Below are positions 329 through 27,572 of a stretch of 58,779 bases of DNA, piece by piece. Position 1 is the first letter of the stretch, and every line of letters begins with the position of its first letter. This DNA comes from Pseudomonadota bacterium. Lineage in GTDB: Bacteria; Pseudomonadota; Gammaproteobacteria; GCA-001735895. The DNA lies in assembly GCA_022563685.1 (NCBI GenBank), contig JADFMY010000004.1, positions 1 to 58,779 of the forward strand, read 5' to 3'. The notes below the pieces were generated by a model. That model did no database searches, had not been told where the DNA came from, and was given only the letters and a program-made list of their open reading frames with translations. A program made the position numbers and the translations under genes.

Positions 329-487
329 TTAAGGAAGGTCTGATTTATTCAGACCTTCCCGCAGTACATGGACGTGCTGCCAAAATCAGTGCCGCTAAGG
401 CATTGATTTTGCGAGACAAACGAAAATCACACTTTTCGCTTGTCGTCCTCTGAGAATTCATGGATGAATTATTCAGAGGTTCCTTAA
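329..487 (+). repeat. MITE-like five-hairpin element, copy 1 (151-bp core 333-483, flanked by TTAA/TTAA)
   Basis: Near-identical to 23882-24032 (8 differences in 151 bp); subterminal inverted ends GGAAGGTCTGA/TCAGAGGTTCC; TTAA on both sides. Confidence 0.85.
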
Positions 488-23395: not shown

Positions 23396-23881
23396 ATGAA
23401 TGACGAGGTCAGGTCAGTACGCTGTATGTTATTGCCACTGTCTTCGCTCAATCTGGTTATCCCCAACTCTGGGGTAGCGGAAATTATCGGTTATTCGACC
23501 CCCAGGCCTGTACCCGACACGAGTGACTGGTTTCTTGGTGTTGTATCGTGGCGAGGTGTGGATGTGCCTGTCGTGTCGTTAGAAGAAATGTGTGCGATCG
23601 ATTCGGTCCATGTCGGCCCCCGGGCTCGAATCGGAATAATTTACAACCCTGAAAAAGACCCTGAAATCCCCTACCTGGGCATACACATGCAGGATATACC
23701 GAGAGCCTACCTGGCCGAATCCGATAAAATGGAAGCAGGAAGCGACGATGGGTTAAGCCAGTACCTGCTTTCCAGAGTTGATGAAGACCACCAGGCGCGA
23801 GCCATTCCTGACCTGGATCGGATAATAGCCGAGTTAAAGACCGAATATGACCAGGAAAAAATCGATCAGATGAAAGCCTAG
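23396..23881 (+). CDS. CheW domain protein (ChpC-like)
   Basis: CheW fold LPLSSLNLVIPNSGVAEIIGY...WFLGVVSWRGVDVPVVSLEEM; follows chpA. Confidence 0.85.
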   Translation: MNDEVRSVRCMLLPLSSLNLVIPNSGVAEIIGYSTPRPVPDTSDWFLGVVSWRGVDVPVVSLEEMCAIDSVHVGPRARIGIIYNPEKDPEIPYLGIHMQDIPRAYLAESDKMEAGSDDGLSQYLLSRVDEDHQARAIPDLDRIIAELKTEYDQEKIDQMKA

Positions 23882-24036
23882 GGAAGGTCTGATTTATTCA
23901 GACCTTCCGGCAGTACATGGAGGTACTGCCAAAATCAGTGCCGCTAAGGCATTGATTTTGTGAGACAAACGAAAATGAAACTTTTCGTTTGTCGTCCTCT
24001 GAGAATTCAAGGATGAATTATTCAGAGGTTCCCTAG
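23878..24036 (+). repeat. MITE-like five-hairpin element, copy 2 (151-bp core 23882-24032, flanked by CTAG/CTAG)
   Basis: Same length and orientation as copy 1; the left CTAG includes the TAG stop of the cheW-like gene. Confidence 0.87.
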
Positions 24037-24099: not shown

Positions 24100-24838
24100 T
24101 TAAATATCTCCCCACAACGATTGTGCAATAGCCAGCGCAGAAATCGCCGCGGTTTCTGTTCGCAATACGCGTGGTCCCAGCCTGATTGAGACGAAACCAG
24201 CCTGTTTGGCGGTCTGTATTTCTGTATCCGACAGACCACCTTCAGGACCCACCAACATTGAAATTTGTTTTTCAGTTGAATCAGGAGTCAGTAACGATTT
24301 TAAATTGTCGCCATCGATGCCGAGTAATATTTTGCTCTGGCGTTGAACCGAATGGCCGAGGACATCGCCCAATTTCCGGTCGAAGCCGATTTCAGGGGGG
24401 GTGATGGCGCTCGCATTGCTTGCAGGCATTGATCGCCACTGCGCGCCAGTGAGACAGTCTTTTTTCGAGCTGCGCAGGTTTGAGTGGAATCTGCGTATGC
24501 TGAGCATTAAACACAGATATCCGACTGACCCCGAGCTCGGTGCTTTTCTGAACCATCCAGTCCATGTGGTCGTTGCGGCTTAATCCCTGGATGATTTCGC
24601 TCGACAGGCCAGACTCACAGTCGCTTAAAACACGAGTTTGAATCGAAGCGATAGTCTGTTTACCCTGGCAGGACAATAGTGACTCATAGTCATAATTGTC
24701 ATCGGCGTTAAACAGGGTAATTGCGTCGCCGGCTTTCAGCCGCAGTACATGCCGCACATAGTGGCTGATAGCCGGTTCAAGTTGAATACTAGTGCCAGGC
24801 GTCAGTGGCTGTGCCACGAAAATACGAGAAAGTCGCAT
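24100..24838 (-). CDS. rsmE: 16S rRNA m3U1498 methyltransferase, frameshifted at a G7 run
   Basis: Two overlapping ORFs (24392-24838 and 24100-24507) encode N- and C-terminal halves; LVGPEGGLSDTEI...LGPRVLRTETAAISAL motif; one fewer G in 24395-24401 joins ...ERHHPPEIGFDRKL... Confidence 0.9.
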
Positions 24839-24874: not shown

Positions 24875-26293
24875 CTAGTAGCGGTAAAGCTCGGGTTTAT
24901 AGGGGCCTTCTACCTTGACGCCGATATATTTCGCCTGTTCTTCACTCAGTTGGGTCAATGAGGCGCCAACCTTTGCCAGGTGCAGGCGAGCAACCTCTTC
25001 GTCCAGATGCTTCGGCAGGGTATAAACCTCGTTGCCGTACTTGCCGGGATTACAGTAAATTTCCATCTGCGCCAGAGTCTGGTTGGTAAACGAGTTGGAC
25101 ATCACAAAGCTGGGATGTCCGGTTCCACAACCCAGATTGACCAGCCGGCCCTCGGCGAGCAAAATGATGCGCTTGCCATCGGGGAAGATGATGTGGTCGA
25201 CCTGCGGCTTGATGTTTTCCCACTCGTATTGCTTGAGCGCCGCGACTTCGATTTCATTATCGAAATGACCGATGTTGCAAACAATCGCCTGATCCTTCAT
25301 CTGCACCATATGATCGTGGCGGATGACGTTAAAGTTACCGGTGGCAGAGACAAAGATATCGGCCTGTTTGCAAGCCTCATCCATAGTCACCACGCGAAAA
25401 CCTTCCATCGTAGCCTGGAGTGCGCATATTGGGTCGATTTCGGTCACCAGGACGGTGGCGCCGAGGCCCTTGAGCGACTGTGCGCAGCCTTTGCCGACAT
25501 CGCCGTAGCCGAGTACCAGCGCTACCTTGCCTGCGATCATCACATCGGTCGCCCGCTTGATGCCGTCGACTAATGATTCTCGACAGCCGTAAAGATTGTC
25601 GAACTTGGACTTGGTGACCGAATCGTTGACGTTAAATGCGGGGAAAGGCAATTCACCATTCTCCTGCATCTGGTAAAGCCGATGAACGCCGGTCGTCGTT
25701 TCCTCGGTCACGCCGCGAATATTTTTTAAGATTGTCGAGTACCAGGTGGGTGACTCGGCGACTTTTTTGCGGATCGCGGTATACATTATCACTTCTTCTT
25801 CGCTGCCTGGATTGTCCAGTACAGAGATATCCTGTTCAGCCTTGCTCCCCAGGTAGACCAGCATGGTCGCATCACCACCATCGTCGAGAATCATGTTCGG
25901 TGTGCCGCCATCGTGCCATTCCATCAGACGGTGGGTGAAATCCCAGTACTCCTCCAGAGACTCGCCCTTGAAGGCAAATACCGGCACGCCGGTTTCGGCC
26001 ATAGCCGCCGCCGCATGATCCTGTGTCGAAAAAATATTGCAGGATACCCAGCGTACCTCGGCGCCGAGCGCGGCCAGGGTTTCAATCAATACCGCAGTCT
26101 GGATCGTCATGTGCAACGAGCCGGCGATACGTGCGCCTTTGAGCGGTTGTTCCGCGCCGTACTTGTTTCGTAAGGAGACCAGACCCGGCATCTCGGTTTC
26201 GGCAATCGCGATTTCCTTGCGTCCCCAGGGGGCGAGTGAAATGTCGGCTACAACATGATCCTGGATCGGATCGTTTTTTAGATTAGTATTCAT
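24875..26293 (-). CDS. ahcY: S-adenosylhomocysteine hydrolase
   Basis: 472 aa; [55 protein letters not shown]-terminal YKPELYRY. Confidence 0.97.
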
Positions 26294-26311
26294 AAATAAA
26301 CCTGTCTATTT

Positions 26312-26377
26312 ATGAGCGCAGTTGAATATGATCGGGATCCGAGCCTGGCAGAGAGTCTGTCGCAGCGCCCCTCGAAT
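26312..26377 (-). promoter_or_regulatory. SAH riboswitch upstream of ahcY
   Basis: Minus strand CGAGGGGCGCTGCGACAGACTCTCTGCCAGGCTCGGATCCCGATCATATTCAACTGCGCTCAT matches the conserved GGCGCUGC...GCCAGGCUCGG...GCGCUCA core and lies just 5' of ahcY. Confidence 0.88.
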
Positions 26378-26405
26378 CCTGGTACCAGGGAACCCCTGAT
26401 ATAAA

Positions 26406-27572
26406 TTATAGTCCGGCTTCCGACTTCAACAAGTCGGCCTTGTCGGTCCTTTCCCAACTTAAATCAATGTCGTCGCGTCCCAGATGACCATAGGCAGCAG
26501 TTTGCTGGTAAATCGGCCGCAGCAGGTCTAGCATCTCAATCAGTCCCCTGGGCCGTAAATCGAAATGTTCGCGCACCAGCCTGGTAATGCGATCGTCGTC
26601 TATTCTGCCCGTACCGAAAGTTTCGACGCTGATCGAAGTCGGTTGTGCGACGCCAATCGCGTAAGATAGCTGTATCTCGCAGCGATCGGCGATGCCGGCG
26701 GCGACGATATTTTTCGCCACGTAGCGTGCAGCGTAGGCAGCCGAGCGGTCCACCTTGGAAGGATCTTTACCGGAAAACGCGCCGCCTCCGTGCCGGGCCA
26801 TACCCCCGTAAGTATCAACGATAATTTTGCGCCCGGTTAAGCCGGTATCGCCTACCGGTCCGCCGATCACGAATCGGCCCGTCGGGTTGATGTGGATATT
26901 CTCACTCCTGCATTTTGAAAACCATTCCTGCGGTAAAACCGGTTTCAATATCGTTTCGATCACGGCCTCGCGCAGGGTTTCGAGGTCAATGTCGGCCGAA
27001 TGTTGTGTCGATAGCACCACGGCTTCGATACCCACCGGTTTGTGATCTTCGTACTGAAAAGTGATCTGGCTTTTGGCGTCGGGTTGGAGCCAGGGTAACT
27101 CACCGGATTTCCTGACTTCGGACTGACGACGCACCAGGCGGTGGGCATAGGTAATCGGTGCCGGCATCAACACGTCGGTTTCATTGCTGGCATAGCCAAA
27201 CATCATTCCCTGGTCGCCAGCCCCCTGTTCACGGCCGGCCGTTTCATCGACACCCATCGCAATATCGGTCGACTGTTTGCCGATACCGGTCAGGACGGCG
27301 CAGGTGTTACCGTCAAACCCGCATTCTGGGTTATCGTACCCAATGGCGGATACTGTGTTGCGTACCACCTGTTCCATATCGACCCATGCCTGGGTGGTGA
27401 TTTCGCCAGCCAGCATTACCATGCCGGTTTTTACCAGGGTTTCACAGGCAACGCGTGAATGCTTGTCCTGCTCCAGCAGCGCATCCAGAATGGCATCGGA
27501 GATTTGGTCCGCGACTTTATCTGGGTGCCCTTCTGAGACTGATTCAGAAGTAAAGATAAATGATGATGCCAT
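26406..27572 (-). CDS. metK: S-adenosylmethionine synthetase
   Basis: [58 protein letters not shown]. Confidence 0.98.

Follow-up and report, generated by a model that had tools for sequence, protein, structure and literature searches.

A mobile element with IS5-type ends and a five-hairpin RNA bearing GGA loops in Gammaproteobacteria

Introduction

Bacterial MITEs are usually regarded as inert debris with stable folds. In the stretch of DNA analyzed here (the window, 58,779 nt of contig JADFMY010000004.1, assembly GCA_022563685.1), two copies of a folded repeat were present, and the second one lay exactly at the stop codon of a CheW-domain gene that closes a chemotaxis-type cluster (response regulators, CheW, and MCP/PilJ). 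The analysis asked what the element is, how it reached the site, and whether its RNA serves the host, the element, or neither.

Copies in the window and their fold

The features of both copies are listed in Table 1. Copy 2 is an insertion of a non-autonomous, IS5-derived MITE, which is short, multi-copy, and devoid of ORFs of at least 100 aa. A sequence-only reading of the window had placed it between CTAG flanks with the TAG stop of the CheW-like gene preserved, and these coordinates were confirmed. The strand of copy 2 given in Table 1 folds at -83.3 kcal/mol (z = -11.7), which is far beyond chance.

Table 1. Coordinates of the element copies, their hairpins, and the adjoining gene in the window.
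Feature	Position	Strand	Remarks
Copy 1 of the element	329..487	+	Core 333-483; TTAA/TTAA duplication
CheW-domain gene	23396..23881	+	Final gene before copy 2; Pfam PF01584
Left target-site duplication, CTAG	23878..23881	+	Contains the stop codon of the CheW-domain gene, TAG (23879-23881)
Element core, copy 2	23882..24032	+	151 bp; IS5-type ends GGAAGGTCTGA.../...TCAGAGGTTCC; the listed strand is the one with the GGA loops
Hairpin 1	23882..23908	+	Formed by the left terminal repeat and an inverted copy of it (GGAAGGTCTGA-TTTAT-TCAGACCTTCC)
Hairpin 2	23909..23930	+	A(N)GGA motif in loop ATGGAG (23917-23922)
Hairpin 3	23931..23959	+	AAAATCA...TGATTTT; stem strongly covarying
Hairpin 4	23964..23993	+	GACAAACGAAAA-loop-TTTTCGTTTGTC; family loop YCRCR
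Hairpin 5	23996..24028	+	A(N)GGA motif in loop AAGGAT (24009-24014); right terminal repeat forms the base
Right target-site duplication, CTAG	24033..24036	+	

The two copies were 94% identical. Counting on both sequences reproduced the eight differences previously reported between the cores, namely, four in loops, one in a linker, and three in stems, the latter changing C.C to G-C, G.T to A-T, and A.C to A-T from copy 1 to copy 2. The better pairing in this one copy pair is weak evidence for structure, because the A.C lesion is nearly private to copy 1 (it recurs in one further copy, L013) and because stem mutations within genomes yield A.C and G.U equally often. The real evidence for structure is supplied by other genomes.

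Mobility and target site

The insertion proposed earlier was borne out by flanks of fixed length, which were compared for all copies with both sides available. Exact 4-bp duplications were found in 78 of 116 copies, while 19 were expected and at most 35 were obtained in 1000 shuffles re-pairing the flanks; no duplication exceeded 4 bp. In genome G145, identical copies occupied many sites with perfect duplications, and therefore the element was recently active there. The left flank was YTAR in 85 of the 116 copies, with TTAA, TTAG, CTAA, and CTAG predominating. The palindromic NTAN target suggested earlier was thus right in being a TA-centered 4-bp palindrome, and is more exactly described as YTAR. 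As TAA and TAG belong to YTAR, stop codons frequently fall exactly within the duplication, as is the case for copy 2.

IS5-family partner and exchangeable ends

IS5-family transposons reside together with the element in genomes G145, G303, G268, G115, G418, and G318, and the four transposases tested matched NCBIfam NF033581 at 275-349 bits, well above the cut-off. When the element ends were compared with those of the resident IS in the same genome, 15-16 of 17 nt were identical in all six genomes. The own-genome IS was the best or equal best match in every comparison (G145 tied with G115). Lineage-specific peculiarities were also common to the element and the resident IS, namely, CGCTGA in G268, CTCTGCAAAA in G115, and CTCTGATTAATT in G303. 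In the case of G418 and G318, the element carried a different end type (CAGGSTGYTGAAA), again matching the resident IS5-family elements, and the RNA core was unchanged. Thus, the ends can be exchanged, while the core remains constant. Mobilization by IS5-family transposases is highly probable.

A search of the window's own genome for a transposase of IS5 size with matching ends found none, a result made uncertain by the assembly (2.99 Mb in 201 contigs, 92% complete). MITEs often outlast their partner, and a resident partner is not strictly defining. Further end types (GAGCCTGTCGCAGAA... and TGATGACTT...) surrounded the same core in L394 and L407 (G328), L397 (G435), L399 (G384), and L404 (G406). 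Partner transposons with the G328 end type, or with that of G406 and similar cases, were looked for and not found.

Probable selection on one RNA strand

The earlier proposal that substitutions preserve the structure was borne out by covariation in a larger alignment. In the A1 alignment, which was made without structure, 97% of cells paired and 22 of 48 pairs showed two-sided changes, a level reached in 0 of 500 shuffles; shifting the partner by one column halved the pairing. A second set, whose alignment had been fitted to the model, gave 98.5% pairing and 29 pairs with two-sided changes.

Both strands were folded for 134 elements, which came from 55 genomes or loci. G.U pairs numbered 121 in the sense strand versus 32 in the antisense strand (sums of genome means), and 45 genomes leaned toward sense while 2 leaned the opposite way. 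The consensuses of multi-copy genomes favored sense G.U by 24 to 2. In the other-class (phylum-level) set, the direction was mostly the same, with 64.5 sense versus 36.5 antisense and 18 to 3. Singleton mutations within genomes were symmetric (34 G.U and 32 A.C), and mutation bias therefore does not explain the G.U excess. The difference between lineage-level and singleton G.U/A.C ratios gave p = 0.0002, although the genomes are related and such p-values are optimistic. Accordingly, the excess between lineages together with the symmetric singletons indicates that selection has acted on one strand's RNA and on the lineage that spreads. That the RNA is selected on the given strand only is very probable from these comparisons, and individual inserted copies are mostly free of RNA-level constraint.

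GGA loops and the CsrA/RsmA signature

Among 168 elements from 80 genomes, GGA was present in 96% of hairpin-2 loops and in 96% of hairpin-5 loops, compared with 0 to 2.4% of the loops of hairpins 1, 3, and 4 and none of the antisense loops. Hairpin 2 fitted CANGGANR in 152 of the 168 elements and hairpin 5 fitted CA(N)GGANR in 146, and the CsrB repeat CAGGA(U/A/C)G was present in 87. The signature of CsrA/RsmE is an ANGGAN hexaloop, the SELEX consensus is RUACARGGAUGU, and the CsrB repeats CAGGA(U/A/C)G sit in hairpin loops (PMC7652899). By sequence, loops 2 and 5 are thus a match to the A(N)GGA hairpin signature of CsrA/RsmA.

Each unit of the element carries two such sites, in stable stems longer than the maximum of 4 pairs that is optimal by SELEX (PMC7652899). 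The element is dispersed rather than being one dedicated many-site sRNA gene; in G054, about three cores at most lie in tandem. The Rfam CsrB/Rsm families gave no match at the gathering score (RsmV, E 0.74, scored 14.8 bits where the cut-off is 100). The host genome of the window carries csrA. Co-occurrence of csrA with the element was not significant (54 of 57 element-bearing genomes versus 188 of 219 others, p = 0.07), and three of the 57 had no CsrA match. On balance, the loops make CsrA/RsmA a slightly favored candidate for the binding partner of the element RNA.

Gene context

Simple ORF calls were used to determine the gene context. Outside ORFs lay 123 of 132 copies, and many adjoined stop codons. 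Orientation relative to the neighbors was even, with 24 copies sense to both, 23 antisense to both, 24 between convergent genes, and 24 between divergent genes. At copy 2, neither a terminator-like site nor a sigma-70-like promoter site was found. As orientation is random and no internal promoter-like site was found, about half of the copies may lack sense transcription altogether. Copy 2 itself is oriented in sense, 3' of cheW, and would form part of the cheW 3' RNA if transcription runs on. The suggestion that it acts as a terminator or mRNA stabilizer of the pil-chp operon found no support, given the missing terminator-like site, the random orientation, and the lack of RNA-level constraint on single inserted copies.

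Copy number and distribution

The window's own genome gave 49 BLAST matches, corresponding to about 40 distinct insertions. A covariance model based on 50 copies matched 57 of 276 gammaproteobacterial genomes and 41 of 215 genera, i.e., one MITE family in about one fifth of the sampled gammaproteobacterial genomes. The element also occurred in genomes of another proteobacterial class, so that one RNA spans two classes with its ends swapped between IS types. A pattern scan of named genomes found it in Chromatiales, Thioalkalivibrio, Thermomonas, Thiotrichales, Methylothermaceae, and the Olavius algarvensis Gamma 3 endosymbiont. This very wide distribution, like the IS5-family partner, the strand-specific RNA selection, and the GGA loops, goes beyond what the sequence-only reading had proposed.

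The plasmid and phage collections contained no match for the window copy, and the plasmid collections contained none for copies from three other genomes. No Rfam family was matched at its gathering score, with nothing convincing up to E 1, and the open-access literature searched yielded no description of the element family.

Proposed mechanism and alternatives

Taken together, the element is probably an IS5-moved MITE carrying a five-hairpin RNA selected on one strand, which most likely presents CsrA/RsmA hairpins. IS5-family transposases would move it in trans, with insertion duplicating YTAR; the ends would swap, following the resident IS, while the interior five-hairpin RNA stays. The RNA would be read from a neighboring promoter. 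As its most likely action, hairpins 2 and 5 would present A(N)GGA to the global regulator CsrA/RsmA, and each transcribed copy may be a small CsrA decoy or a local CsrA-controlled segment. If the CsrA link is true, a mobile element would spread binding sites of a global regulator to dozens of places per genome. A more tentative extension, to which we give less than an even chance, is that of a mobile RNA module, selfish or mutualistic, which acts as a CsrA decoy, travels through the Proteobacteria on the ends of the resident IS5-type transposon, and is selected as RNA in the spreading lineage.

Three alternatives were weighed against this reading. An ordinary IS5-derived MITE, whose hairpins are processing, stabilizing, or insulating structures at mRNA 3' ends or within intergenic RNA, similar to NEMIS/Correia and ERIC, with incidental GGA, is unlikely. 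The strong RNA fold and the location of most copies outside ORFs, many next to stop codons, agree with it, and the NEMIS RNA has been proposed as an RNase III substrate for cutting (review PMC2229807). However, it leaves unexplained why GGA is kept in two particular loops while the stems vary, and the lack of orientation bias, the absence of a terminator-like site, and the unconstrained single copies also count against it.

Somewhat less likely still, the RNA may serve the element itself, its transcript stimulating transposition of the element or of the partner IS5, e.g., by drawing CsrA off the transposase mRNA. Such a role would fit selection that is visible in the spreading lineage and not in inserted copies, and a core that is kept while the ends track the partner IS. 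However, DNA ends suffice for IS5 transposition as far as is known; the transposase leaders were inspected by eye only.

That the hairpins are DNA palindromes without an RNA role, maintained through template-switch correction or a function as cruciforms, is highly improbable: the ends do contain perfect palindromes and quasi-palindrome correction would yield paired changes on both arms, yet a DNA process is strand-symmetric, whereas G.U far exceeds A.C on one strand with symmetric singleton mutations, and loop conservation is confined to that strand. Such correction as the sole cause was rejected on the strand asymmetry.

Comparison with known elements

Similar to the Correia/NEMIS, ERIC/RU-1, and RUP MITEs (PMC2229807), the element is short, non-coding, multi-copy, and intergenic, with terminal inverted repeats, a TA-centered target duplication, and stable RNA folds. 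Unlike them, its partner IS5 family was identified through lineage-specific end matching, its RNA core was found with different end types, and its strand-specific RNA selection and conserved GGA loops were measured. With the IS5-family insertion sequences (NF033581), it shares the ends (GGAANCTCTGA... or CAGGSTGYTGAAA) and the 4-bp YTAR duplication, but it has no transposase gene, and its interior RNA was absent from the IS elements examined.

The A(N)GGA hairpin loops resemble those of the CsrB/CsrC/RsmX/Y/Z sRNAs, and hairpin 5 often carries the CsrB repeat. In contrast to these sRNAs, the element has two sites per unit and dispersed mobile copies, and neither a promoter of its own nor an Rfam match above threshold was found. 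REP/BIME elements with RAYT transposases are likewise palindromic intergenic repeats; they lack a target-site duplication, whereas the element has 4-bp duplications, IS5 ends, a length of 151 bp, and five hairpins.

Variant forms and neighboring features

Long forms of 208-365 bp were found in the window's own genome (L058-L063) and in L069 and L081-L085 (G016). They carried modular nested hairpin inserts within the hairpin-2 loop, with GGA loops in sense in some and in antisense in others, and stretches matching the insert also occurred elsewhere in L006 and L010. In L443 and L444 (G054), RNA cores were arranged in tandem with a 124-125 bp period, in two to three units without the terminal hairpin 1. 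At L120:2997-3030, a solo 27-bp palindrome with fused left and right ends was apparently an internal deletion product.

Downstream of copy 2, an RNA methyltransferase gene (window 24100-24838, minus strand) was split into two overlapping frames, owing to either a frameshift or an assembly error. An SAH riboswitch (26307-26379, minus strand) lay between a metK-like gene (26406-27572) and an adenosylhomocysteinase gene (24875-26293).
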